DNA of 35,334 nt, taken from Planctomycetia bacterium. GTDB lineage: Bacteria > Planctomycetota > MHYJ01 > WSZJ01. The notes beneath the pieces are model-generated. The model was not told where the DNA came from, did not search any database, and saw nothing but the letters and a program-made list of their open reading frames with translations. Positions 11,056 to 24,949 of this stretch are shown one piece after another (the stretch's first letter is position 1; every line of letters starts with the position of its first letter). The position numbers and the translations under genes were made by a program. Where the stretch lies: assembly GCA_020849035.1 (NCBI GenBank), contig JADLHC010000105.1:1-35334 (forward strand), given 5' to 3'.

Positions 11056-11748
11056 CTACGCGGTCGCCGCGGGCCCTTCCCCGGCCGGTGCGGCCACCAC
11101 GAGCCTGTCGAACCACTCGTGGTCCTGGTCGAAGATCAGCCCGACGTGGCGCACCTTCTGGTCGGGCGTGTGCTCCGAGTACGCGGCGCGGGCGCGGAAG
11201 GCCTCCTCGCCCCCGGGGAACTCGATGCGGCCCTCGAATTCGCGATCGAGCCGGGCGTGGAAGAAGTCATGGAAGCGCCGCATGGCCTCGAAGTCGTGGC
11301 GCGGGGCGGCGAGGACGCCGTGGCGCGAGAGGGCGGAGACGCGGATCTCGGTGAACTCGGCGCCGACCTGGACGAGCGCCGGGACGTCGATGTTGTGGCG
11401 ATTCCAGTCGGCGGGCGAGCGGCCGAGGGCCTGGCGGAGGGCGTCGGACATCGGGCCGACGCGGACGGGCTTGCGCAGGCTCACGAACGGGCCCGAGGCC
11501 GATTCATCGCGGAAGAGCGCGACGACGGGGAAGCCGGGGAGGATCTGGTGGGCTTCCTCGATCAGCGGCAACTCCTGTTCCGGCTCGCCGACGTCGAGGA
11601 CGAGGGCGTCGAAGAGGCCGGTGTGCAGCTTGGCGCGTGCGTCCTTGAGGGTCGGGCTGATCGAGACGTTGCATCCGCGGCCGAGCAGGATGGACTTGAT
11701 GAGGAACCCGGAGGTTCGCTCGCGATCGACGATGAGGACGTTGTCCAT
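11056..11748 (-). CDS. response-regulator receiver protein with degenerate PilZ-like domain
   Basis: A 230-residue two-domain protein. Residues 1-115 look like a receiver: MDNVLIVDRERTSGFLIKSI, a phospho-acceptor candidate Asp in ALVLDVGEPE, then VVALFRDES and LRKPV with the conserved Lys. The C-terminal half resembles PilZ (VPALVQVG, SALSRHGVL, RHVGLIFDQ). The c-di-GMP signature is eroded: RxxxR is absent and (D/N)xSxxG reads AxSxxG. The two homologues at 16559-18157 keep both motifs. An AAGGG sequence 7 nt before ATG 11748 can serve as ribosome site. It is divergent from parA across 146 bp. The domain pair is visible; loss of c-di-GMP binding is an inference. Confidence 0.72.
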   Translation of the reverse strand: MDNVLIVDRERTSGFLIKSILLGRGCNVSISPTLKDARAKLHTGLFDALVLDVGEPEQELPLIEEAHQILPGFPVVALFRDESASGPFVSLRKPVRVGPMSDALRQALGRSPADWNRHNIDVPALVQVGAEFTEIRVSALSRHGVLAAPRHDFEAMRRFHDFFHARLDREFEGRIEFPGGEEAFRARAAYSEHTPDQKVRHVGLIFDQDHEWFDRLVVAAPAGEGPAATA

Positions 11749-11833
11749 GGGGAGACCCTTTCCTGGGAGCCGCGCCACGCCGGGCGCATTGACGGAAATC
11801 CTCTTCCCATATCGGCTTCCGGAAGACCAGACC

Positions 11834-11861
11834 TTGACTGAACTTTTGTATGTGCTAAAAT
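11834..11861 (+). promoter_or_regulatory. sigma70-type promoter TTGACT-N16-TAAAAT for parA
   Basis: TTGACT (11834-11839) and TAAAAT (11856-11861) are separated by 16 nt. They precede a roughly 27-nt leader with GAGAGGGGA and the parA GTG at 11895. This is one of few leadered promoters in the window with both hexamers recognisable. Confidence 0.65.
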
Positions 11862-11894
11862 TACCCGATCTTGTCCCGCTGAGAGGGGATCCCC

Positions 11895-12692
11895 GTGCGC
11901 ACGATCGCGCTGACGAACCAGAAGGGCGGCGTCGGGAAGACCACGACCGCCGTCAACCTCGCCGCGTCCCTCGCCCACTACGGCCGCCGCGTGCTGATCG
12001 TGGACTGCGACGCGCAGACCAACGCGACCCTCAGCTTCGGGATCAACCCCGCGAAGCTCGAGGCCACCGTCTACGACATCTTCACGGGGGAAGCGCGCGC
12101 CGAGGAGGTCATCGTGCGGTACTCGGACCGGATCCACGTGATCCCGTCCACGCCCGATCTCGCCGGCGGCGAGGCGGAGAAGGCGCCCGCCGCGTCGCGC
12201 GGCCAGGCGCTCAAGCAGGCCCTCGCGGGGCTGACCGGCTACGACTTCGTCCTCGTCGACTGCCCGCCGACGCTCGGGCTCATCAACGTCAACGTCCTCG
12301 TCTTCGTCGAGGAGATCATCATCCCCATGCAGTGCCAGTTCTTCGCGCTCCAGGGGATTTCGCTGCTGCTGAAGACGATCGACCTGGTGCAGAAGCGTGT
12401 GAACCCCCGCCTGAAGATCACGGGCGTCCTGCCGTGCATGTTCGACGGGCGCACGACGCTGTCCCGCGAGGTCCTCGAGGAGATCGGGCGGCATTTCGGC
12501 GACAAGGTCTACCGCACGCGCATCCGCTCGAACGTCCGGCTCGCCGAGGCGCCGAGCTTCGGAAAGCCCGCGATCGAGTACGCGCCGGAGTCGAACGGCG
12601 CCCAGGACTACCTCTCGCTGGCGCGCGAGGTTCTCGGGATGCCCGACGACGCCAAGGTCCCCGCGGAGTTGCCGAAGCAGGAGACGGCGTAA
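11895..12692 (+). CDS. parA: ParA/Soj-family ATPase
   Basis: A 265-residue deviant-Walker ATPase of the ParA/MinD superfamily, used to segregate or position chromosomes, plasmids or protein complexes on the nucleoid. It starts MRTIALTNQKGGVGKTTTAVNLA with the deviant Walker A KGGVGKTT at 10-17. Other motifs are LIVDCDAQTNAT, DFVLVDCPPTLG, PMQCQFFALQG and the closing RIRSNVRLAEAPSFGKPAIEY, typical of Soj. The GTG start has a GAGAGGGGA ribosome site. No parB or parS-like repeat is visible beside it; the chromosomal partner may lie elsewhere, or this may be an orphan that positions another complex. It converges with the frameshifted gene, whose stop is 1 nt past the parA stop. Confidence 0.93.
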   Translation: MRTIALTNQKGGVGKTTTAVNLAASLAHYGRRVLIVDCDAQTNATLSFGINPAKLEATVYDIFTGEARAEEVIVRYSDRIHVIPSTPDLAGGEAEKAPAASRGQALKQALAGLTGYDFVLVDCPPTLGLINVNVLVFVEEIIIPMQCQFFALQGISLLLKTIDLVQKRVNPRLKITGVLPCMFDGRTTLSREVLEEIGRHFGDKVYRTRIRSNVRLAEAPSFGKPAIEYAPESNGAQDYLSLAREVLGMPDDAKVPAELPKQETA

Positions 12693-12693
12693 G

Positions 12694-13051
12694 TCAGTGG
12701 CGGCAGGCAGTCGCGGGCAGCGGGAAGGGCGTGCTCCGCGTCGTCGCCGCATCGAGCCGCGCGTGCCGCAGGACCTCGTCGAGCGCGCGACGACAGCGGG
12801 CAACGGGATGATCCGGCAAACGCCAGCTCGACGAGCTTCCCCGGGGAGCCGGCAAGACCGTCCTCGTAGAACTTCCGAAGCGTGCAAGCGCAGCCAGGAC
12901 CCGCCGGGAGGTCCGGGGGGACTTCGAAGAAAAACAACCCGACGCCATCCCCCGCCGGAGTGCTCCAGACGCGCGGGGATGCCGACTCGCCGGGCGGCCG
13001 GAGATTCCACCCGGGGACGACGAGCGAGAGCGAGTCCAGGGATGGCCGCAT
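12694..13051 (-). pseudogene. hypothetical protein gene with a one-base frameshift
   Basis: From ATG 13051 the frame reads a plausible protein (MRPSLDSLSLVVPGWNLR, later GLFFFEVPPDLPAG and RKFYEDGLAGSPGKLVEL). Beyond position about 12820 it turns into an Arg/Ser-rich stretch with poor third-position GC that runs into parA. Dropping one T from the TTT at 12820-12818 (minus strand) restores a coding-like frame, ALPDHPVARCRRALDEVL, with high third-position GC. That frame ends at a TGA (12696-12694) just after the convergent parA stop. The reconstructed product would be about 118 residues. I do not recognise the family. A sequencing or assembly error in a short T run is as likely as a real mutation. 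Confidence 0.55.
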
Positions 13052-13059
13052 GCGGTGCT

Positions 13060-13094
13060 ATTGTGCCTTCCGGGCGAACCGCCCCTCATACAAT
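13060..13094. promoter_or_regulatory. divergent -10 hexamers for the small gene (minus) and kinase (plus)
   Basis: Minus-strand CACAAT (13065-13060) ends 8 nt before ATG 13051. Plus-strand TACAAT (13089-13094) ends 8 nt before ATG 13103. Neither start has a strong Shine-Dalgarno, so both transcripts may be almost leaderless. No clear -35 is seen. Confidence 0.35.
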
Positions 13095-13102
13095 CCGGGA
13101 CC

Positions 13103-16048
13103 ATGACGTCGGCCCCGCGCCACCGCAAATCCGATCTCCTGTACGCCCTGCTCGCGCAGCAGATGTCGTTCATCTCGCGCGACCAGCTCCTCGAGGCTGC
13201 GAACCTCTGGATCGAGGATCCCGCGCGCTCCATGGGCGACCTCCTCCAGGAACTCGGGCACGTCGGCCCCGACGAGCACTCCCTTCTCCAGGACGCCGTC
13301 GAGATGCACCGCTCCCCCGACGGCACCGACACCGCCATGGAGAAAGCCACCGCCGTCGATCCCGACATCCGCGAGTCGATCAACGCCCTTCGCCCGCCGG
13401 TCGAGATCCGCCAGTGGCTCAACCGGCTCCAGAACCGCCGCGTCTCGCGCGTCGAGGCGCCGAAGGCGGCGGCGCGCGGCGAACGCTACGTCCTCGGCGC
13501 CGAGATCGCCCGCGGCGGCCTCGGGCAGGTCCTCGAGGCGAAGGACCGCGACCTCGATCGGGAAGTCGCCGTCAAGCTCGTGCTCGACGACCTCGCCCCC
13601 GAGGCCGCCGCACGCTTCGAACGCGAAGCCAAACTCACCGCGCGGCTCGACCACCCCGCCGTCGTCCCCATCCACGACTTCGGCACCCTTCCCGGACCGG
13701 ACGGGAAGGCGAAGCTGTTCCTCTGCATGAAACGGATCCGCGGCCGAGACCTGGGCGAGATCCTGGAGGCGATGGCGGCGGGAGACGAGGAACTGCGGAG
13801 GAAATGGTCGCGGGCGCGGCTGCTCGGGGTGTTCCAGGACATCTGCCTCGGGATGGCGTACGCGCACGCCAAGGGCGTGATCCACCGCGACCTGAAGCCC
13901 TCGAACGTCATGATCGGAGACTTCGGCGAGACGCTGATCGTGGACTGGGGGCTGGCCAAGGAGGTGTCCGAAAAGCCGGGCGGCGACGAGACGCGGCGCA
14001 TGAAACGACCGCAGGAGGGCTCCGGGCAGAGCGCGCGCATCACCCTCGACGGCGACGTCGTCGGCACGCCGGCCTACATGGCCCCCGAGCAGGCCGAGGG
14101 ACGGACCGCGCAGGTCGACGAGCGCAGCGACATCTTCGCGCTCGGCGCCATCCTCTACGCGATGCTCACGCTTCAGCCTCCCTGGGAAGGCGACACCGCC
14201 ACCGCCGTCCTCGAGACCATCCGCTCCGGCCGCATCGCCGCGCCGTCCACGCGCCTCGCCGCCGCACGCGCGCCCGGCGCCGTCGTCACCGCCCCGTCGG
14301 CCGTCTCCGCCGAGCCCATCCCCCCCGAACTCGACGCCATCTGCCTCCGCGCCCTCGCCCTCCGCCCCGACGACCGCTTCCCCTCCGCCCTCGACCTCCA
14401 CCACGAAATCCAGCTCTTCCTCGAGGGCGTCAAGGAGCGCGAGCGCCGGCAGCGCGAAGCGGAGGAGCGGCTGGGGGAGGGGAAGCGCTGGCAGGCGCGG
14501 CTGGGGGATGTGACGAGGGAGATCGCGGAGCAGGGGCGGGTGGTGGAGCAGCTTGCGGACCGGATCGAGTCGTGGAGGGCGGCGGCGGAGAAGAAGGCGC
14601 TGTGGGACGCCGAGACGCGGCTGCGGGCGCTGGAGGACGAGAAGGTGGACGTGGAGGCGCGGGCGCTGGCGGCGTTCGGGCAGGCGATGGTTGCGGACCC
14701 TGCGTGCGGGGCGGCGGCGGACGGGACCTGCGAGTTGCTGTACGCGCGGTGCCTCGAGGCGGAGGCGGCGCGCGACCGCAAGGGGCTGCTGCGGGCCCGG
14801 AAGGCGTTGCTGCAGAACGACCGGCGGGGCGAATTCGCGGCGCGCCTGGACGCGCAGGGGAAGCTGTTCCTGTCGGCATTCGTCTACCGGTGCGACTGCC
14901 TGCGTCCCGTCCGGGCCGCGGGCTGGAAGGTCGAGTACGGGGAGAAGGCGGATCATCCCTGGGAGAACGGCGGACCGGCGCTGGGCCGCGACCTGCGCGA
15001 CGCGGACCGCGCCGTGCCCTGGGTCCGCACGTCGCCCGCCGGCGCGGTGTTCGGCCACGGGCCGGACTGCGTCCGGGCGGACGCTCCCGGGGTGCCGGTG
15101 TACATCGCCCGGTACGAGGAGCGTGACAAGCGGCTGCAGCTCGGCGAGGAGCGCCTGCTCGGGACGACGCCGATCCGGGGCGCCACCCTTCCCATCGGAT
15201 CCTATCGCTGCATCCTGAGGCCGGAGGGGCGCCCGGAGGTCGTCCTTCCCGTGAAGATCGAGCGCGCGGGCCGCTGGGACCAGGGCGTCCAACTTCCCGC
15301 CGCCGCCGACGTCCCCCCGGGATTCGTGTTCGTGCCGGCCGGACCGTTCACGTTCGGAGGCGAAGCCGCCGGAGGCGGACAGGCCGAAACGCTCCTCGCG
15401 CGCGACTTCTTCGTCGCGCGCTTCCCCGTCACCTGCGACGAGTACCTCGCGTTCCTCCGGACACTCCCGCGCGAAGAGGCCCTGGCCCGGTCGCCGCGGG
15501 AGGGAGACCGCCGGTTCTGGATCATGGACGACGCCGGCATCCGCCTCCCGCGGCCCGGCGAGGACGCGCGGTTCGACTGGGCCCCGACGTGGCCCGTCCT
15601 CGGAATCTCGTGGCTCGACGCCCTGGCATATGCAGGCTGGGCCTCCGCCCGCGACGGCCGCGCCTACGTCCTTCTCCACGAAGAGCAGTTCGAAAAGGCG
15701 GCGCGCGGCGTCGACGGTCGGGCCTTCTCCTTCGGCGACGAGGGCGACGCCTCGTACCTGCACTGCAGCGCCTCGCTCAAGGGGCGGATCACGCCGCTCC
15801 CCGTCGGCTCGTTCCCCGCGGACGAGTCGCCCTACGGCGTGCGCGACATGTCGGGCGGCGTGGGGACGTGGTGCATGAATTCGGCTCCCGTCCCTTACCG
15901 CGAGTGGCGCGCCCTCCGCGGCGGCTCCTGGTCCAACAACGTCCAGGGCGGACGCGCCGGGCTCCGCATCGGGAACGTCATCCAGCGGACCTCGTGGGCG
16001 CTCGGGATCCGGCTCTGCGTCAACGCCGACCGGTGGCCCGCCCCCTGA
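13103..16048 (+). CDS. Ser/Thr protein kinase fused to a formylglycine-generating-enzyme-like domain
   Basis: A 981-residue Hanks-type kinase. Residues 1-110 are a helical lead (SDLLYALLAQQMSFISRDQLLEAANLW) of the kind common before planctomycete kinases. The kinase domain spans about 125-455: glycine loop ARGGLGQV, K158 in VAVKLV, HRDLKPSN with catalytic D263, DWG (D281, in place of DFG) and GTPAYMAPEQ. A coiled coil covers about 460-600 (ERERRQREAEERLGEGKRW), and a beta-rich linker follows. Residues from about 738 form an FGE/SUMF1-like domain: GFVFVPAGPFTFGG, PVTCDEYLAFL, PVLGISWLDALAYAGW, YGVRDMSGG and RALRGGSW. The usual FGE catalytic cysteine pair is not evident, so this domain is probably a binding module. 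No transmembrane segment is seen. ATG 13103 is chosen because a TACAAT lies 8 nt upstream. Confidence 0.93.
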   Translation: MTSAPRHRKSDLLYALLAQQMSFISRDQLLEAANLWIEDPARSMGDLLQELGHVGPDEHSLLQDAVEMHRSPDGTDTAMEKATAVDPDIRESINALRPPVEIRQWLNRLQNRRVSRVEAPKAAARGERYVLGAEIARGGLGQVLEAKDRDLDREVAVKLVLDDLAPEAAARFEREAKLTARLDHPAVVPIHDFGTLPGPDGKAKLFLCMKRIRGRDLGEILEAMAAGDEELRRKWSRARLLGVFQDICLGMAYAHAKGVIHRDLKPSNVMIGDFGETLIVDWGLAKEVSEKPGGDETRRMKRPQEGSGQSARITLDGDVVGTPAYMAPEQAEGRTAQVDERSDIFALGAILYAMLTLQPPWEGDTATAVLETIRSGRIAAPSTRLAAARAPGAVVTAPSAVSAEPIPPELDAICLRALALRPDDRFPSALDLHHEIQLFLEGVKERERRQREAEERLGEGKRWQARLGDVTREIAEQGRVVEQLADRIESWRAAAEKKALWDAETRLRALEDEKVDVEARALAAFGQAMVADPACGAAADGTCELLYARCLEAEAARDRKGLLRARKALLQNDRRGEFAARLDAQGKLFLSAFVYRCDCLRPVRAAGWKVEYGEKADHPWENGGPALGRDLRDADRAVPWVRTSPAGAVFGHGPDCVRADAPGVPVYIARYEERDKRLQLGEERLLGTTPIRGATLPIGSYRCILRPEGRPEVVLPVKIERAGRWDQGVQLPAAADVPPGFVFVPAGPFTFGGEAAGGGQAETLLARDFFVARFPVTCDEYLAFLRTLPREEALARSPREGDRRFWIMDDAGIRLPRPGEDARFDWAPTWPVLGISWLDALAYAGWASARDGRAYVLLHEEQFEKAARGVDGRAFSFGDEGDASYLHCSASLKGRITPLPVGSFPADESPYGVRDMSGGVGTWCMNSAPVPYREWRALRGGSWSNNVQGGRAGLRIGNVIQRTSWALGIRLCVNADRWPAP

Positions 16049-16051
16049 CGG

Positions 16052-16495
16052 CTACATCTCCGGCGAGAGCCCTTTCACGAGCCGCTGCAGCAGCTCCATG
16101 TGCTCGGTCTCGTCCGTGATCAGCTCCTCCAGCTTCACCTGCAGCGCCGTCTCCCCCAGCTCGTTCGCCTCGTCCACCCGCTCCGTGTAGGCCTTCACCG
16201 CCTCGCGCTCGATCGACAGCGCGTACTCCAGCATCTCGCGCAGGGTCGTCGGGCGCTTCCACGGCGGAACCGAGAACGACGGCGTCCCGCCCATCGCGAT
16301 GATCTTGTCGGCGAGGAACTCCACGTGCTTCACCTCCGCGTGGATCTCCGGTTCGAGGATCTCGCGCAGCTCGTGGCCGCGGATGCCGAACGCCATGGAG
16401 CGGCACCAGAGGTACAGCAGGATCGCCTGCAGCTCGCGGCCGAGGTCCTGGTCGAGGTGCTCGATGAGCTTCTGCTTGGTGATCGCGCGGCGCAT
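16052..16495 (-). CDS. ferritin-like / bacterioferritin-family protein
   Basis: A 147-residue four-helix protein with di-iron-type carboxylates. The first helix has HLDQDLGRELQAILLY, the second EIHAEVKHVEFLADKI (an ExxH), the third ALSIEREAVKAYTE, and the fourth LITDETEHMELL (a second ExxH). Length and motif spacing fit bacterioferritin/Dps-like proteins that oxidise and store iron. The methionine that ligates haem in true Bfr is not clearly placed, so I leave the symbol empty. ATG 16495 has GGGAG at 8 nt spacing. A TATCAT hexamer further upstream could be a -10. The gene converges with the kinase, with the two stops about 3 bp apart and no terminator between them. Confidence 0.88.
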   Translation of the reverse strand: MRRAITKQKLIEHLDQDLGRELQAILLYLWCRSMAFGIRGHELREILEPEIHAEVKHVEFLADKIIAMGGTPSFSVPPWKRPTTLREMLEYALSIEREAVKAYTERVDEANELGETALQVKLEELITDETEHMELLQRLVKGLSPEM

Positions 16496-16558
16496 CCGTC
16501 CGTCTCCCGGAATGTGGGGGCGGCCATGATACCGGGGCGGGCGGGGATGGGAAGGGGG

Positions 16559-17347
16559 CTACCGCGGGGCCGGGAGGGCGTGCTCTGCGGACGCCCGGAT
16601 CTCGGGCGCTGCGCCGTCCGCCGCCAGCGTGCGGTCGATGAACTCGCGGAGCCGGACGCGGTTCGCGGCATCCATCTCGAACAGCGCGACCCCGCGGTCC
16701 CACGCCGCGCCCGCCGAAGCGCCGGCGTCCCGCACGACCTGCCCGCGCCCGCGGACCGTCGCGCGATTCGGAAGCTCCAGCTCGAGATGGACGACGCTGC
16801 GGAGCGGAAGCGGCTCGGTGGTGCTCGCCAGGATCCCGGTTTCGCTGATGTTCCGCGAGACCCCGACACGCGTTACCGAGGTCTGCCCGCCGGACGCGAG
16901 GCGGTAGCGGAGCTGGAGCGGCCTCGGGATGCGGCGCGCCCGCGCGTGGTACTTCAGCGGCGGCGCGTCGGCCGCCGCGTGCCGCAGCCCCGCCAGCACT
17001 TCTTCCTTCAGGTACGGTTTCTCCGCGAACGCGCGTGCGCCGGACCGGAGGGCGCCGGGGACGAGCCCGGCGTGCTCGGGCCGGAAAGTCACGAGGGTCC
17101 GGACCTGCGGAGCGAGCTCGCGCAGCTGGTGGACGGTGGCGACCCAGCCGACGTTCGGGGCCGCGGGGTGGTCTGGAAGCGCGAGATCGAGGGCGACGGC
17201 CCAGGGGGAATAGGCGAAAAGCGCGTCAAGGAGCGCCTTGCCGTGGGAGACACGTCCGGCGAAGGCGAACTCGGTGCCGCGGAGGGCGGCCCCGAGGGAG
17301 ACCGCGGCCCGGTCATCGGGATCGGCGACCAGGACGCTCAGGGGCAT
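16559..17347 (-). CDS. response-regulator receiver-PilZ protein (copy A)
   Basis: A 262-residue protein with an N-terminal receiver and C-terminal PilZ domain. Receiver features are VLVADPDDRAAV, the phospho-acceptor candidate in ALDLALPDHP, LVTFRPE and the conserved Lys in AEKPY. PilZ features are RRIPR (the RxxxR c-di-GMP motif) and NISETG (the NxSxxG motif), followed by VHLELELP and RGRGQVV, closing DRGVALFEMD. It probably couples phosphorylation to c-di-GMP-dependent output without a DNA-binding domain. It is a clear paralogue of the gene just upstream (17408-18157), sharing SHGKAL-DA, PWAVALDL-LPDHP and GWVA. GGAG lies 7 nt before ATG 17347. The partner kinase is not in the window. Confidence 0.85.
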   Translation of the reverse strand: MPLSVLVADPDDRAAVSLGAALRGTEFAFAGRVSHGKALLDALFAYSPWAVALDLALPDHPAAPNVGWVATVHQLRELAPQVRTLVTFRPEHAGLVPGALRSGARAFAEKPYLKEEVLAGLRHAAADAPPLKYHARARRIPRPLQLRYRLASGGQTSVTRVGVSRNISETGILASTTEPLPLRSVVHLELELPNRATVRGRGQVVRDAGASAGAAWDRGVALFEMDAANRVRLREFIDRTLAADGAAPEIRASAEHALPAPR

Positions 17348-17407
17348 GCGCCGTCTCCAGGGGGTTGCTCTTGGCCGTGCCTGTGGCGGGCTGGCGGCGT
17401 TCTGGGA

Positions 17408-18157
17408 CTAGCTGACTGCCGTCGAGTACTGCTCCGACGCCAGGGCCCGCGCGATGAACTGCTTCAGCCGGTCGCGCGATCCCCCGTCGAGGTCCACGAA
17501 CGCCAGGCCGTGCTCGGTCTGGCCGTCGTTGTTCCGCGCGGAGCGCACGATCTGGGCGCGGCCGCGGATCGCCACGCGGTCCGGCAGGTCGATCTCCAGG
17601 GCCACGACGCTCCGCAGGGGCATTTCGTCCGCGCTCTTGAGGCAGACGCCCGTTTCGCTCAGGTTCTGGACCAGGCCGATCCGCCGCGTCGGCGGATTCT
17701 CGTTCGAGGCGCTGTAGCGCGCGGGGAGCTTGCGCGAAAGGCGGCGCGCGCGGACGTAGAACGTCATCGGCGGCGCGTCGGCGTGCAGGTGATTCAGGGC
17801 CTGCAGGATCTCGCCGCGGGCGAAGGGCTTTTCGATGTAGGCCGAAGCGCCTGCGGCGAGGGCGGCGGGCACGAGGTTGCGGGTCTCGGGCGTGCACGTC
17901 ACGGCGATCTTGAGCCACGGGGCGATCTCGCGAAGGTGCGCGGTGGCCGCGACCCAGCCGACGCCCGGAGTGTCGGGATGATCGGGAAGCGAGAGGTCGA
18001 GTGCGACGGCCCAGGGGGTCAGCCGCCAGACGGCGTCGACGAGCGCCTTGCCGTGGGCGACGGAGCCCTGGAAGGAGTAGGGCGTGCCGCGGAGAAGCGT
18101 GGCGAAGGAGACGGCGGCGACGGAGTTGGGATCGGCGACGAGGACGGTCCGGGCCAT
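17408..18157 (-). CDS. response-regulator receiver-PilZ protein (copy B)
   Basis: A 249-residue paralogue of the downstream gene, on the same strand and 60 bp away, so the pair looks like a tandem duplication. The receiver shows TVLVADPNSVAAV, ALDLSLPDHP with the phospho-acceptor candidate, VTCTPE and IEKPF. The PilZ part has RRLSR (RxxxR) and NLSETG (NxSxxG), then ALEIDLPDRVAIRGRAQIV and HGLAFVDLDGG. Both c-di-GMP-contact motifs are intact. ATG 18157 is preceded by GGGAG at 7 nt spacing. It is first in its transcription unit and is read away from the AT-rich intergenic region 18158-18492. Likely roles are motility, surface attachment or secretion control (inference from PilZ function). Confidence 0.85.
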   Translation of the reverse strand: MARTVLVADPNSVAAVSFATLLRGTPYSFQGSVAHGKALVDAVWRLTPWAVALDLSLPDHPDTPGVGWVAATAHLREIAPWLKIAVTCTPETRNLVPAALAAGASAYIEKPFARGEILQALNHLHADAPPMTFYVRARRLSRKLPARYSASNENPPTRRIGLVQNLSETGVCLKSADEMPLRSVVALEIDLPDRVAIRGRAQIVRSARNNDGQTEHGLAFVDLDGGSRDRLKQFIARALASEQYSTAVS

Positions 18158-18314
18158 TTCGGCACTCCCTGAAGCAGGAATCTAGGGTCAACTGTGGCAA
18201 GTGGCAGGCGAAAACACCATGAAAATCTGTGGATATCGCCGAAAAAAACCGGAATTTCGCTGACGACGCAAAGCATGAGTCTAAAAGAACTTACGCAATT
18301 ATTACTCGAGAAGT

Positions 18315-18335
18315 CGTGCACATTCGCACGTTTTT
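18315..18335 (+). terminator. short hairpin plus T5, intrinsic-terminator-like
   Basis: CGTGC (18315-18319), loop ACATTC, GCACG (18326-18330), then TTTTT. The stem is only 5 bp, so strength is uncertain. On the minus strand there is no T-run. Confidence 0.4.
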
Positions 18336-18456
18336 AACGCAGGCTTCCTTGCGGCTGCCGTCGTCCGCTCTCCCACGAAGAACGGCCCGACCTGAAGCAT
18401 AACCCATTCCGTCTGCGGCGTTTTGCCGCCCCCGGTCCCGCGCGCCCCGCTTCAAT

Positions 18457-18485
18457 CTGGCATTTTCCATCGGCCCGCGTAGAGT
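18457..18485 (+). promoter_or_regulatory. promoter CTGGCA-N17-TAGAGT for the fRMsr gene
   Basis: CTGGCA (18457-18462) and TAGAGT (18480-18485) each match the consensus at four of six positions with ideal 17-nt spacing. The -10 ends 7 nt before the GTG at 18493, predicting a leaderless transcript. No Shine-Dalgarno is seen. Confidence 0.45.
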
Positions 18486-18492
18486 TTCTCCT

Positions 18493-18972
18493 GTGAGCCA
18501 CGAACTCGCCAACCGCTACACCCGGGTCAACGTCTCGATCGCCAACGCCATCCCAGACGGCGCTTCCTTGCCCGCCCGCATGCGAATCGTCACCGACGAA
18601 CTCTGGCGCGAGTTCGGGAATCACCGCCCCGTCAGCTGGGTCGGCTTTTACTTTCTCGGCGACGGCGAGATGACGCTCGGCCCCCGCCGCGACAAGCCCG
18701 CCTGCAGCCCGATCGGGCTCCACGGCGCGTGCGGACAGGCCGCGACCACGGGCCGGACGCTGGTCGTGCGGGACGTGAAGGACCTGGGCGACAACTACAT
18801 CGCCTGTGACCCGCGCGACCGCTCCGAGATCGTCGTCCCCGTGCGCGGCGCGGACGGCGGCGTGGTCGGGGTGCTCGACGTCGACTCGCACGCGGTCGGG
18901 GCCTTCTCCGACGCGGACCGCCGCGCGCTCGAGAAGATCGTCGCCGAGCACCTCGACGGCGCGGCGCGCTGA
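18493..18972 (+). CDS. msrC: GAF-domain protein, free methionine-(R)-sulfoxide reductase (fRMsr) type
   Basis: A 159-residue single GAF domain matching the fRMsr family, which reduces free Met-(R)-sulfoxide using cysteine chemistry and thioredoxin. All three family cysteines are present: C71 (KPACSPI), C80 (GACGQAA) and C105 (NYIACDPRDRSEIVVPV). WVGFYF and GVLDVDS are also diagnostic. Spacing is unusual: C71 to C80 is nine residues and C80 to C105 is 25, each one off from my recollection of the E. coli enzyme. The GTG start gives the family-length N-terminus. The gene converges with lgt (4 bp between stops). A plain sensory GAF protein is the alternative, but the three cysteines argue for fRMsr. 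Confidence 0.82.
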   Translation: MSHELANRYTRVNVSIANAIPDGASLPARMRIVTDELWREFGNHRPVSWVGFYFLGDGEMTLGPRRDKPACSPIGLHGACGQAATTGRTLVVRDVKDLGDNYIACDPRDRSEIVVPVRGADGGVVGVLDVDSHAVGAFSDADRRALEKIVAEHLDGAAR

Positions 18973-18976
18973 CCCC

Positions 18977-19747
18977 TCACGCCGCCGCCGCTTCCGGATC
19001 CCGCCTGTTCACCCGGCGCAGCCACGGCCACAGCCCGCCCGCGATCAGGGCGATCCCGATTGCCACCCACTGCGACGTCGAAAGCGGACCCAGCCCGCCG
19101 CGGTCCGGGTCGCCGCGCGTGATCTCGATGAGGAAGCGCGAGACCGCATAGAGCAGGAGGTACGAGAGCATGGTCTGGCCCTGGAATCGCCGGCGCGGAT
19201 GCAGGCGCGAGAGGAGGGCGAAGAGGGCCACGCCGACCGCGGACTCGTACAACTGGCTCGGCTGCCGCGCGACGCCGTCCACGGCGGGCATCACGATCCC
19301 CCAGGCGGCGGGCTTGCCGTAGCAGCAGCCGTTCATGAAGCAGCCGAAGCGGACGAAGCCGTGGCCCAGCGCGAGGGACGGGGCGAAGCAGTCCGCGACG
19401 GGCCAGAACGGCATCTTGTGGCGCCTGAAGACGAAGGGAACGGTGAGGAAGCACGCGATCAGGCCGCCGTAGAACGTCAGGCCGCCCTCCCAGATCTTCA
19501 CGATGTCGCCCGGGTGACGGCTGTAGTGCGAGTTCCATTCGTCGGGCTGGAAGACGAAGAACAGCCGCGCTCCGACGATGGCGGAGATCATCCCGACCAC
19601 GGCCGCGTCGAGGACGTGGTCCCTCTTGATTCCCTCCTTCTCCGCGAGCTTGCGGATGTGCCAGGCGGCGAAGCAGAACGCGACGGCGATGGCCGTGCCG
19701 TACGAGAAGATGGGGATGCCGAAGAGGTGAAAGAGGATCGGGCGCAT
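18977..19747 (-). CDS. lgt: prolipoprotein diacylglyceryl transferase
   Basis: Inner-membrane enzyme that transfers diacylglycerol from phosphatidylglycerol to the lipobox cysteine of prolipoproteins, the first step of lipoprotein maturation. The 256 residues contain about seven hydrophobic segments. Signature motifs are WEGGLTFYGGL, GHGFVRFGCFMNGCCYG (conserved Arg and Asn), RQPSQLYES and SRFLIEITRGD. ATG 19747 gives the usual short periplasmic start MRPILFHLFGIPIFSYG. There is no Shine-Dalgarno; CATAAT ends 8 nt upstream. Its substrates would include the predicted lipoprotein dehydrogenase at 5337-6557. Confidence 0.95.
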   Translation of the reverse strand: MRPILFHLFGIPIFSYGTAIAVAFCFAAWHIRKLAEKEGIKRDHVLDAAVVGMISAIVGARLFFVFQPDEWNSHYSRHPGDIVKIWEGGLTFYGGLIACFLTVPFVFRRHKMPFWPVADCFAPSLALGHGFVRFGCFMNGCCYGKPAAWGIVMPAVDGVARQPSQLYESAVGVALFALLSRLHPRRRFQGQTMLSYLLLYAVSRFLIEITRGDPDRGGLGPLSTSQWVAIGIALIAGGLWPWLRRVNRRDPEAAAA

Positions 19748-19755
19748 GGGCGGGC

Positions 19756-19761
19756 ATTATG
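19756..19761 (-). promoter_or_regulatory. -10 hexamer CATAAT for lgt
   Basis: Minus-strand CATAAT (five of six consensus) ends 8 nt before the lgt ATG. No -35 is recognisable at normal spacing. It belongs to the group of very short-leader starts in this window. Confidence 0.35.
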
Positions 19762-19796
19762 ACGCGGCCACGACCGGCGCGCCCCCACGAACCGTC

Positions 19797-20864
19797 CTAC
19801 CGGCTCCGGACGTGCCAGCGGCGGCCGTCGCCGAGTTTCATCCGCTCCCAGCGCCCGAAAATCGGGTGGCCGCAGTCGGGGCACTTCGAGTCGCGAATGC
19901 GGATCTTTGCGATCGCGTACCCCGACCGGTCGACGAGGAGCGCGGAGCAGCGCGGGCAGTACGTGTTCTCGAGGGGGTGGCCGTGGACGTTGCCGACGTA
20001 GACGTACTCGAGGCCGTGCTTCTTCCCGATCGCGTGAGCCTCCTCGAGCCGATTCACCGTCGTCGCCGGCAGGTGGGCGAGGTCGAGGTAGGGGATGAAG
20101 CGCGTGACGTGCCAGGGGGTCTCGCGGCCCATGCGGGTGGCGATCCAGTCCGCCATGCCGTTGAGCTGGGCGTCGTCGTCGTTCACGGTCGGGGTGACGT
20201 TCGTGACGACCTCGACGTGCATTCCGTAGCGGTGTTTCGCCATCTCCGCCACGGTGAGGATCTCGTCGAACCGCGCGAGCCCGCCGCTGATCCTGTGGTA
20301 CGCCTTGCGGTTGAACGCCTTGAGGTCGAGGCGGTAGATGTCGAGGACGGGCGCGATCATGTCGAGCGCCTCGGGCGTGATGTAGCCGTTCGTGATGTAG
20401 GCGGTGTAGAGGCCGCGCTTCTTCGCCTCCGTTGCCGCCTCGAGCGTGTGCTCGAACCAGATCGTCGGCTCGTTGTAGGTCCAGCAGATGCCGTCGCATC
20501 CCTCGCGCACCGCCATCTCGACGGACTCCAGCGGCGACATCTTCTCGAGATTCGAGCCGTCCTCGCTCGGCCTGTCGTGCGAGATCTCCCAGTTCTGGCA
20601 TCCGGGGCAGTGGAAGTTGCAGCCGCGCGTGCCGGCGGAGAGGATTTTCGTCCCCGGGTAGGCGTGGTTGATCGGCTTCTTCTCGATCGGGTCCACGGCG
20701 ATCGCGCTGGTCACGCCGTAGATGAGCGACCAGAGCCTGCCGTCCCGGTTCAGCCGCGTGTTGCAGAAACCGGCCTTTCCCGGGCGCACCGTGCAGCGCA
20801 CCTGGCACAGGTTGCACTTGATGTTGCCCTGCGGCAGCGGGGCGTAGAGGACGCACTCTTTCAC
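19797..20864 (-). CDS. amrS: AmmeMemoRadiSam-system radical SAM enzyme (AmrS)
   Basis: A 355-residue radical SAM protein related to pyruvate-formate-lyase activases. An N-terminal cysteine cluster (IKCNLCQVRCTVRPGKAGFC) precedes the radical SAM triad in GTRGCNFHCPGCQNWEIS. TYNEPTIWFEH, YITNGYI, YRLDLKAF and HVTRFIPYLDL follow in family order. The C-terminus has a zinc-ribbon pair (TYCPRC, KCPDCG). A GTG start at 20864 gives VKECVLYAPLPQG, matching the family's MKEA-type N-terminus, with GGGAG 10 nt away. The in-frame ATG at 20873 sits only 1 nt from that site. The usual partners AmrA (AMMECR1) and AmrB (Memo) are absent from the window. The true substrate of this family is still unsettled. 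Confidence 0.87.
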   Translation of the reverse strand: MKECVLYAPLPQGNIKCNLCQVRCTVRPGKAGFCNTRLNRDGRLWSLIYGVTSAIAVDPIEKKPINHAYPGTKILSAGTRGCNFHCPGCQNWEISHDRPSEDGSNLEKMSPLESVEMAVREGCDGICWTYNEPTIWFEHTLEAATEAKKRGLYTAYITNGYITPEALDMIAPVLDIYRLDLKAFNRKAYHRISGGLARFDEILTVAEMAKHRYGMHVEVVTNVTPTVNDDDAQLNGMADWIATRMGRETPWHVTRFIPYLDLAHLPATTVNRLEEAHAIGKKHGLEYVYVGNVHGHPLENTYCPRCSALLVDRSGYAIAKIRIRDSKCPDCGHPIFGRWERMKLGDGRRWHVRSR

Positions 20865-20911
20865 GGCCGGCATTCTCCCGTCATGCAGGAACAACGCGCG
20901 GGGACGTCCGG

Positions 20912-21970
20912 TTAGTCGAGGAACTCGACCAGCAGCCCGGACTTCGGGCGCACCTCCCCGATGACCGCCGAGTGCGGGAACCCCTGTTTCCCCAGGTCCC
21001 GCACCAGCGCGTCGGCCTGGCCCGCGGGGAGGGTGAACAGGAGTCCGCCCGACGTCTGCGGGTCGAACAGGACGTCCTCGAGCGACTTCCGGATCCCGGC
21101 CGCGGTCCGGTACTTCGCGCCGAGGAACTCGCGGTTCGTGACGTCGCCGCGGGTCTTCTGGCCTTTCGACGCGAACTTCTCCGCGTCCGGGAGGACGGGA
21201 ACCTTCGAGGCGCGGATCGCCAGGGTCACGCCGGACGCCTCGGCCATCCCGGCGCCGTGCCCCGCGAGCGCGAACCCCGTGATGTCGGTCGCGGCGTGTA
21301 TCTCCTTTCCCTCCGCCGCAGCCACGCCGCCTGCGTTCAGCTGCTCCATCTGCGCGATGAGCTCCCCGGCGTCCTTCTCCGGGAACTTCCTCGCCTTCAT
21401 CGCCGTCGTCAGGATCCCCGTCCCCAGCCGCTTCGACAGCACCAGCGCGTCCCCCGGCTTCGCCTTCGCGTTCGTCCAGATCCGGTCCGGGTGCACGAGC
21501 CCCGTGATCGCCGCACCGAACTTCAACTCGTCGTCCGTCACGCTGTGCCCGCCCAGGAGCGCGCACTTTGCCTCGGCGTACTTGTCGTTGCCGCCCGCGA
21601 GGATCTCGTGGAGCACCTCGGGGCCGAGGGCGTCCATCGGGTAGCAGAGGATGTTGAGGCCGTTGATCGGCCGGCCGCCCATCGCGTAGACGTCCGACAG
21701 GGCGTTGGCGATCGCGATCCGCCCGAAGGTCCGGGGGTCGTCCACGATCGGAGTGAAGAAGTCGACCGTCTGCACGAGGGCCCGCTCGGCGTCCAGCCGG
21801 TAGACACCGGCATCGTCGAACGTCCCCGCGTTCACGAGGACGTTCGCGTCGGTCGGCGCCGTCAGCCCCTCCAGGGCCTTATGCAGGTCGGCCGGACCCA
21901 GCTTGCTCGCTCAACCGGCGCAGCTCGACATGTCCGTCAGCCGCGGCCGGCCCTTGCCGAAGATGCCCAT
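20912..21970 (-). CDS. selD: selenide, water dikinase with UGA-encoded selenocysteine (Sec20)
   Basis: Makes selenophosphate from selenide and ATP, the selenium donor for Sec and selenouridine. The true gene starts at ATG 21970 (GGAG 8 nt upstream) and reads through TGA at 21913-21911. The N-terminus is MGIFGKGRPRLTDMSSCAGU, followed by ASKLGPADLHKAL, putting Sec20 at the position of E. coli Cys17. The essential Lys follows as K23. The second Cys of the usual C/U-G-C-K motif is Ser here (U-A-S-K). Downstream motifs are intact: DFFTPIVDDP, ANALSDVYAMGG, DITGFALAGHG and DPQTSGGLLF. Total 352 residues. Without recoding, a caller would begin at GTG 21835 and lose the active site. A hairpin just after the TGA fits a bacterial SECIS. 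Confidence 0.93.
21884..21913 (-). promoter_or_regulatory. candidate bacterial SECIS hairpin in selD
   Basis: On the minus strand the Sec TGA (21913-21911) is followed by TGGGTC (21900-21895), loop CGGCC and GACCTG (21889-21884). This is a 6-bp stem with two G-U pairs. The apical loop begins 16 nt after the TGA and has a G among its first two bases, which fits the bacterial SECIS model as I know it. Confidence 0.5.
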
Positions 21971-22100
21971 CGCGTGTGCTCCAATTCGGGGAGGACGACT
22001 CTAGCGGACGCCGCCGCGGCGGGGAAGGCGGATCGGGCTCAAGCCGCGGCTGTGCGGGCGTCGAAAGACGGGCAGGGAACCGGTGTACCCGGAGGGAGCG

Positions 22101-23453
22101 ATGAACCGATTCGCGGCGGGGGCGGTGTGTCTGCTCGGGATCGCGGCGGCGGCGCGGGCGGAGAGCCCGCTGGAGGAGCGGATCCGCGCCCTCGAGATCC
22201 GGACGCCCGCGGCCCCCGGGACCGGGCTCGGCGTCTCCTTCAAGGAGGGCCTCCACGTCCGCGCGGCGGGCAACGACCTCGACTTCCGCATCGGCGGCCA
22301 CGTCGTCGCCCACGGCGTCTTCCACCAGCACGGCGAACGCCACGGGACCGACACGCTGGTCGTCCGCGAGGCCCAGCTCGAGCTCGACGGGAGGGTGTTC
22401 GAGCGGTTCTCCCTCCACGCCGCGGTGGACCTCGCCCCAGGCGTCGCCGGGCGGCTGTTCGAAGGCTACGCGGAGTTCAACGCCTGGGACGTCGTGCGGC
22501 TCAGGGCGGGGCTGTTCCTCGTGCCTTACTCGCCGGAAGCGCTCGAGCCGCTGATCTGGCAGGACTTCCCGGAGAACGGCCTGACCGACCTGCACGCGCC
22601 TTTCCGCGACATGGGCGTGCTGGCGTACAGCACCCTGTTCGACGGGATCCTCGATTTCTCCCTCGGCGTCACGAACGGCAACGGCGCGGACGGCGCCGAC
22701 GACAACGGCGACAAGGACGTCGTGGGTTACTTCGGCGTCAGCCCCCTCGCCTGGACCGGGTGGGACTGGCTGCGCGGCTTCCGGATCGGCTTCGGCGGCA
22801 CGACCGGACGGCACGAGGCGCTGCCGGACCGGATGCCCGTCCCCGCCGTGATGCCCCAGTCCGGCTCCGAGATCCAGACCGGCCGCGCCGGCAAGCTCCC
22901 CGGCGACCAGGTCGTCCGCGAGGACGGCCGCCGCACCCGCGCCACCGCCGACCTCTCGCTCTCCCTCGGCCCCGTCGACTTCGGCACCCAGATCTCCCGC
23001 TTCAAGACCGGCCTCCGCTCCGACGGACACCGCTCCGACTACCGCAGCTGGGCCAACCGCTGGCAGCTCGGGTTCTGGATCTTCGGCTACCGCAACACCG
23101 GCCAGCGCCCCACCATCGAGAACCCCCTCTTCGCCGGCGGCCCCGGCGGCCTCCAGGTCGCCGCCCGCTACTCCACCGGGACCTTCGACGACGACTTCAT
23201 CAGGCGCGGGGGCTTCGCCGGCGCCGAGACCGCCCGCGAGTACTCCCTCGTGGTCAACTGGTACCCCAACCCTCACGTCCGCGTCTCCCTCATGCTCTCC
23301 GACATCCGCTACAGCCGCCGCGGCATCCCCGTCGGCGAGCCCCTCCCCCCGCAGGCCGGCCGCGGCGCGGCCTCGGTCCCCGGCAACGACCGCTGGGCCC
23401 ACCACACCGACAGGGAGAAGATCCTCCTCCTCCGCGTCCAGGTCGATTTCTAG
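22101..23453 (+). CDS. OprO/OprP-like phosphate-selective porin family protein (copy 1)
   Basis: A 450-residue outer-membrane beta-barrel with a signal peptide (MNRFAAGAVCLLGIAAAARA). A short helical stretch, SPLEERIRALEIRT, resembles the N-terminal coiled coil of trimeric porins. Barrel-type alternation follows, with motifs shared with the next gene: EFNAWDVVRLRAGLFLVPYSPE, DMGVLAYS, LGVTNGNG and REYSLVVNWYPNPHVRVSLM. It ends with a terminal Phe (VQVDF) as outer-membrane proteins usually do. ATG 22101 has GGAGGGAG close upstream. It is divergent from selD across 130 bp in which I see no clear promoter. Anion or phosphate selectivity is inferred from family only. Confidence 0.85.
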   Translation: MNRFAAGAVCLLGIAAAARAESPLEERIRALEIRTPAAPGTGLGVSFKEGLHVRAAGNDLDFRIGGHVVAHGVFHQHGERHGTDTLVVREAQLELDGRVFERFSLHAAVDLAPGVAGRLFEGYAEFNAWDVVRLRAGLFLVPYSPEALEPLIWQDFPENGLTDLHAPFRDMGVLAYSTLFDGILDFSLGVTNGNGADGADDNGDKDVVGYFGVSPLAWTGWDWLRGFRIGFGGTTGRHEALPDRMPVPAVMPQSGSEIQTGRAGKLPGDQVVREDGRRTRATADLSLSLGPVDFGTQISRFKTGLRSDGHRSDYRSWANRWQLGFWIFGYRNTGQRPTIENPLFAGGPGGLQVAARYSTGTFDDDFIRRGGFAGAETAREYSLVVNWYPNPHVRVSLMLSDIRYSRRGIPVGEPLPPQAGRGAASVPGNDRWAHHTDREKILLLRVQVDF

Positions 23454-23620
23454 CCCCACGCAGGCGCCCGGACTTCCACTCAACTTCCCCCCGCGGCCGC
23501 GCCGATAGTCCGATCAGGCGGTTTGGGGAAGGGAGACTCCGTCCCAATCCGGGAGCCTCCATGCGGCAACGGCCGCGCGCCGCCTGTCCAATCGGTGGAT
23601 TGGCATTCAGGGAGGAGTCC

Positions 23621-24949
23621 ATGCGACTTCTGTCCTGGCCTGCCGCGGCGCTCGCTCTTGCGATTGGCGCCTCGCAGGCCGCTGCCCAGGCGGGCAGCCC
23701 GAGTCTCGAGGAGCGCGTCAAGGAGCTCGAGATGAAGGCGTCGGCGAAGGGCAAGTCCGGCGGAGGAGGCGATGCGGTCGGCGCCTATTTCGACGACGGG
23801 CTGCGCTTCAAGTCCGACAACGGCTCCTTTGAGGGCCGTATCGGCGCGTACGTGATCACGCACTACACGACGTTCCTGTGGGCCAACGAGGCGGACGGCT
23901 ACAACGACGGGTTCAGCCTGCGTGAAGCGGGCGCGGACCTGTACGGCCGCCTGTGGGGCGCGTGGGAGGTCTATGTGCGGCCGCGGGTGATGCCCGGCGG
24001 GACGGACCTGTACTACGGGTGGGTGGAGTTCAACAAGTGGGACGCGTTCAAGGTTCGGGCGGGCGTCTTCAAGGAGCCGTACTCGCCGGAGCGGCTCGAG
24101 GACGTGAAGTGGATGGACCTGCCGGAGGATTCGATGGTGAGCATCACGACGCCGGGCCGCGACCTGGGCGCGATGATCCACGGGGCGCCCCTGGACGGGA
24201 TGGTGAACTACGCGGTCGGCGTGTTCAACGGCAACGGCGTGGGCGGCGACGAGAACAGCGACAAGGACCTGGCGCTGCGCCTTGCGATCCGGCCGGGTGC
24301 GAAGATGGAAAGCGACGTGATCAAGCACCTGACGATCGGCGGCAGCTTCACCCGCGGCATCTCGGACCGGAACAACGTGACGCCGTTCGCGTTCCGTGCG
24401 CCGGCGACGGGCACGACCTGGCACGGCGGCGTGCCGTCGATGGGCTGGGAGCTGGACTCGATGGTGACCCGCGCGGGAGCGGACATCGTCTGGGTCTGGG
24501 GGCCGTTCTCGCTGAAGACGGAGTACTCGTACTTCAAGCAGAAGCTGGAGTTCGCGGACACGGACCATGAGACGTTCCGGGCGCACGCCTGGTACGCGCA
24601 GGCCGGGTTCTGGCTCCTCGGCAGCACGCGGCTGAACAACCACCGGCCCGACATCAAGAAGCCGATCTTCGGCGACAAGGGCGGGTTCGGCGACATCCAG
24701 GTCGTGGGCCGGTTCTCGCAGATCCGGATCGGCGACACGTTCGAGGAGCACGCGGGCCTCGGCGGGAGCCGCAGCGTCCAGGAGATCGCCCTCGGCGTGA
24801 ACTACTACCCGAACGCCTACGTCCGGGTTTCCGTGATGTACGTCAATTACCGGTACGACCACGAGGACACCCGCGAGATCCGCACGGCCAACGGCCGGCT
24901 GCTCGACGAGGACAATTGCATCGTCATCCGTGGCCAGATCGACTTCTAG
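23621..24949 (+). CDS. OprO/OprP-like porin family protein (copy 2)
   Basis: A 442-residue paralogue of the preceding porin. It has a signal peptide ending ASQAAAQA, the coiled-coil start SLEERVKELEMKA, and barrel motifs DGLRFKSDNGSFEGRIGAY, VEFNKWDAFKVRAGVFKEPYSPE, DLGAMIHG, YAVGVFNGNG and NYYPNAYVRVSVMYVNY. The C-terminus RGQIDF ends in the aromatic residue needed for outer-membrane assembly. ATG 23621 has an excellent ribosome site (GGAGGAG). The 167 bp between the porins show no convincing promoter or terminator, so co-transcription is possible. Codon use differs from copy 1 (more aag and gag runs, fewer cgc), hinting that the copies are old rather than a fresh duplication. A strong terminator follows. 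Confidence 0.88.
   Translation: MRLLSWPAAALALAIGASQAAAQAGSPSLEERVKELEMKASAKGKSGGGGDAVGAYFDDGLRFKSDNGSFEGRIGAYVITHYTTFLWANEADGYNDGFSLREAGADLYGRLWGAWEVYVRPRVMPGGTDLYYGWVEFNKWDAFKVRAGVFKEPYSPERLEDVKWMDLPEDSMVSITTPGRDLGAMIHGAPLDGMVNYAVGVFNGNGVGGDENSDKDLALRLAIRPGAKMESDVIKHLTIGGSFTRGISDRNNVTPFAFRAPATGTTWHGGVPSMGWELDSMVTRAGADIVWVWGPFSLKTEYSYFKQKLEFADTDHETFRAHAWYAQAGFWLLGSTRLNNHRPDIKKPIFGDKGGFGDIQVVGRFSQIRIGDTFEEHAGLGGSRSVQEIALGVNYYPNAYVRVSVMYVNYRYDHEDTREIRTANGRLLDEDNCIVIRGQIDF

Follow-up and report, generated by a model that had tools for sequence, protein, structure and literature searches.

A selD gene with an in-frame TGA codon at the catalytic site in a Planctomycetia bacterium

Selenophosphate synthetases (SelD) that carry selenocysteine (Sec) have long been known. 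The Sec-type enzymes of Pasteurellales, Clostridia and Deltaproteobacteria as well as animal SPS2 share Sec at one and the same catalytic site, and the known Sec-type forms are encoded together with the Sec machinery in the same genome and need their own product. The SelD proteins of Escherichia coli and Aquifex aeolicus use a catalytic Cys at this site, and in the E. coli enzyme Lys20 has a role in selenide handling, while Cys19 is dispensable. The substitution of E. coli Cys17 by Ser yields a catalytically inactive protein (PMC3956282). Along with FdhA, SelD ranks as the most widespread bacterial selenoprotein (PMC1794560); Sec-type genes make up 19% of the SelD genes in 223 reference genomes, always with Sec at this position (PMC4561486), and the use of Sec has been reported in Planctomycetes (PMC4807772).

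Here we describe a selD gene of a Planctomycetia bacterium, located in a stretch of 35,334 nucleotides (contig JADLHC010000105.1, termed “the window”), and compare it with these systems. The source genome is a fragmented MAG of 5.42 Mb in 349 contigs, 89.5% complete and 3.4% contaminated. With a probability of about 96%, the gene product would be a functional Sec-type selenophosphate synthetase, into which SelB inserts Sec20 and which takes part in a feedback loop through its own product.

The selD gene and its active site

The gene and the critical codons of its active site are located as follows:

20912-21970, minus strand: selD, selenide, water dikinase, 352 amino acids with putative Sec20 (TGA translated as U; TIGR00476, E=3e-108; 79-84% identical to same-genus orthologues)
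21911-21913, minus strand: TGA codon of putative Sec20, at the position of E. coli SelD Cys17 (translation and structure alignments; five of five genus members)
21902-21904, minus strand: Lys23, the conserved motif Lys, equivalent to Lys20 in E. coli (translation and structure alignments)
21920-21922, minus strand: Cys17, at -3 from Sec in C-A-G-U (translation; shared by the genus members and by many Planctomycetota)

The minus-strand frame of 352 residues extends from an ATG at 21970 to a TAA stop ending at 20912 and is interrupted by a single in-frame TGA at 21913-21911. The translated protein matches the NCBIfam model TIGR00476 over its whole length with 361.6 bits, the curated cut-off being 125 bits. 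Alignments with solved structures pair U20 with Cys17 in the E. coli enzyme (3u0o) and with the catalytic Cys in the Aquifex one (2yye); both proteins belong to the same fold family over the whole length and likewise have a Lys past the catalytic residue. The active-site context reads SSCAG-U-ASKLGP, where the putative Sec of the N-terminal loop precedes the conserved Lys within the motif U20-A21-S22-K23. Judged by its sequence, the gene is a Sec-type selD, whose product would incorporate Sec. Where the E. coli and Aquifex enzymes have a catalytic Cys, the planctomycete frame has putative Sec, and the +2 position is occupied by Cys, Ala and Ser in the E. coli, Aquifex and planctomycete proteins, respectively. 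From the E. coli-like Sec-type form (G-A-G-U-G-C-K) it differs in the flanks only (C-A-G-U-A-S-K).

The initial annotation had assigned the TGA to the catalytic Cys/Sec position of SelD, with the conserved Lys three residues further on and Ser in place of the second Cys. Translation and alignments agree with this reading in every coordinate, yet the Cys at -3 (C-A-G-U) had been overlooked. It had also placed the true start 135 nt upstream of the standard call, which proved correct: a mechanical open reading frame call begins the gene at GTG 21835 instead of ATG 21970, and a product begun there contains neither the catalytic residue nor the conserved Lys. A mis-called gene is thereby set right, the catalytic residue of which would be dropped by ordinary annotation.

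Conservation of the TGA codon, Sec machinery and proposed self-dependence

Four other genomes of the same genus carry TGA at the identical selD codon, and their proteins are 79-84% identical to the one encoded in the window. Among named relatives, the Planctomycetota MAG WSZJ01000005.1 is the nearest (83% identity across the compared stretch). Compared with genus relatives, the differences are mostly synonymous on either side of the TGA; relative to genome G004, for instance, codons 1-19 show 8 synonymous and 2 non-synonymous differences, and codons 21-60 show 13 and 1, respectively. This pattern argues that the region 5' of the TGA is translated and that translation continues past it. On these comparative grounds, the TGA is no chance event and the gene is under purifying selection.

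The prediction that the organism makes Sec is supported by selA, selB and tRNA-Sec (selC), all of which are present elsewhere in the source genome. SelA scores 531.7 bits; the main piece of SelB alone reaches 307.3 bits, or 342.6 bits when joined with in-frame neighbouring pieces. Two tRNA-Sec(UCA) genes were found (77.2 and 73.4 bits), one of which shares a 97-kb contig with selA at a distance of approximately 20 kb:

C207:368-459 of the source genome (G000): tRNA-Sec (L031)
C85:90747-90838 of the source genome (G000): tRNA-Sec (L032)

Contig C207 is only 4.5 kb long and may be contamination. In at least four further genes of the source genome, a TGA lies in frame where Sec is likely. These include one for a molybdopterin oxidoreductase, with the TGA in NRT-U-HAPSVAGL, the FdhA Sec site, and genes for AhpD-like proteins, three of which were read. 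A further tRNA-Sec-like stretch of 79 nt with a UCA anticodon, yet without a D arm, lies beside a restriction-enzyme-like open reading frame (C110:51733-51811, L033) and is probably a remnant attachment site left by an integrated element. In the same-genus genome G002, a tRNA-Sec-like sequence of 53.2 bits with a long variable arm and a GCA (Cys) anticodon (L051, C10:4768-4858, minus strand) might be a recoded tRNA-Sec relative.

The TGA could in principle mark a sequencing error or a decaying pseudogene translated from GTG 21835, the start that standard calling selects, and G002 does possess a truly decayed 5' selD copy with its TGA, 10 kb from the intact gene. Such an origin is very unlikely for the gene in the window, considering that TGA occupies the identical codon throughout the genus, in five genomes assembled independently, and recurs in most SelD genes of Planctomycetota, that purifying selection acts on the codons on both sides, and that a product from 21835 lacks the catalytic motif and the Lys; the conservation of the TGA rules this reading out. 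The probability that TGA encodes another amino acid under a different genetic code is smaller still and practically negligible. A frame that stays open through TGA is what such a code would produce, but at least nine neighbouring genes stop at TGA (e.g., lgt, galT, glgA and cocE), in-frame TGA occurs only at known Sec sites among the genes checked, and the genome encodes a full Sec machinery. The TGA stops of conserved genes thus rule out an altered code, and since TGA serves as an ordinary stop in the neighbourhood, the selD codon points to local Sec recoding with the code unchanged.

Under Sec recoding, SelB and Sec-tRNA-Sec, guided by an mRNA hairpin past the UGA, would insert Sec at residue 20. 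Sec20 and Lys23, both in the flexible N-terminal loop, would then handle selenide during ATP cleavage to yield selenophosphate. SelA would use selenophosphate to form Sec-tRNA-Sec, which is needed for SelD synthesis, and a positive feedback loop would result. That Sec is inserted in the cell, that Sec20 is catalytic, that this gene has a SECIS and that the feedback loop operates are inferences.

That SelD depends on its own product, as the initial annotation proposed, is likewise suggested by the pathway and by the finding of no other SelD in an assembly that is approximately 89% complete. Self-dependence would not be genuine if selD were read with Sec while a second, Cys-type SelD supplied selenophosphate. 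Precedents exist: some planctomycete genomes have one Sec-type and one Cys-type SelD (e.g., G040 and G013), and fusions of an NADH dehydrogenase-like oxidoreductase with SelD, which have the SelD domain in common with the present protein but are fused and Cys-type, include one in same-genus G002. This arrangement appears quite unlikely for the source genome, in which (at approximately 89% completeness) no such fusion was found and the sole other match is a thiL-like open reading frame fragment (E=2e-4).

A SECIS in this selD is expected from the mechanism, and the candidate is as follows:

21885-21899, minus strand: possible SECIS stem-loop, weak; predicted hairpin 14 nt past the TGA, z=+0.72

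Starting at the TGA, a stretch of 51 nt folds with -17.1 kcal/mol, which is not better than shuffled sequences (z=+0.72). The gene does not stand out either when synonymous codons are redrawn with the protein sequence kept (three windows, z between -0.2 and +1.7). As a group, Sec-type selD genes show extra downstream structure, with mean z values of -1.33 in Planctomycetota and -1.49 in others, compared to -0.34 in Cys-type genes (Mann-Whitney p 0.0003 to 0.0015 over the three windows). When the starts of 28, 66 and 94 Sec-type selD genes were aligned without gaps, RNAalifold found no common hairpin, because the position of the hairpin varies between lineages.

Motif distribution and flanking cysteines

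The motif U-A-S-K had been regarded as a variant, a view that the comparison does not sustain. Among 143 distinct Sec-type SelD proteins, a non-random sample skewed to relatives of this gene, U-A-S-K is the second commonest form (41), preceded by U-A-A-K (60) and followed by U-A-G-K (16), U-A-C-K (14) and U-G-C-K (12); Aquifex SelD has C-A-A-K. The motif is found in all genus relatives and also in Bacillota, Desulfobacterota, Chloroflexota, Acidobacteriota, Armatimonadota, Myxococcota and others. Of 149 genomes sampled evenly across Planctomycetota, 106 encode SelD, 89 of these 106 with one in-frame TGA, and the planctomycete selD copies that were read have the TGA at the active site. Sec-type SelD is therefore the usual form in the sampled Planctomycetota, above the 19% of the prokaryote reference set (PMC4561486). 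Cys-type homologues exist among the sequences read, and the one relative found on viral contigs has Cys. A planctomycete selD with a TGA is thus a true but ordinary case of a common and well-known enzyme form.

The Cys at -3 provides a lead. Across 172 distinct SelD proteins, 59 have a Cys at -3/-2 and 34 at +2. Approximately 12 would be expected to combine the two if the traits were independent, but none does. The two traits change at least 12 and at least 10 times on a FastTree tree. A simple count gives a Fisher p of 0.0003 (111 sequences), and a tree-based test finds 0-1 informative independent pairs and hence has no power; for this reason, the count by itself is no evidence. Conceivably, the partner thiol of SelD is movable, residing either at +2 (U-x-C, the E. 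coli type) or at -3/-2 (C-x-x-U or C-x-U, the type of the present protein) and never at both, since two thiols, if present together, might compete in one selenenyl-sulfide or selenide-transfer step. This idea is doubtful. Many SelD proteins have neither flanking Cys, which argues that a second thiol is not required. If upheld by a proper phylogenetic test, the never-both pattern would point to a role of the second thiol beyond what the E. coli mutants on their own had shown.

Genomic neighbourhood

Downstream of selD follows a neighbour on the same strand:

19797-20873, minus strand: amrS, AmmeMemoRadiSam radical SAM enzyme, the gene that follows selD (TIGR04337, E=3e-88)

The genes selD, amrS and lgt adjoin on one strand (window positions 18977-21970). 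The adjacency of selD and amrS also occurs in the genomes G001 and G003, and G002 keeps the order selD, amrS and lgt around an insert; amrS is regarded as no more than a neighbour of selD. In G002 (L234, C243), the insert of 12 kb separates selD from amrS at approximately 11154-23635 and holds the decayed 5' selD copy with its TGA (20931-21053). Divergent from selD, two adjoining Porin_O_P-type outer-membrane proteins are encoded at 22083-23453 and 23651-24949 of the window.
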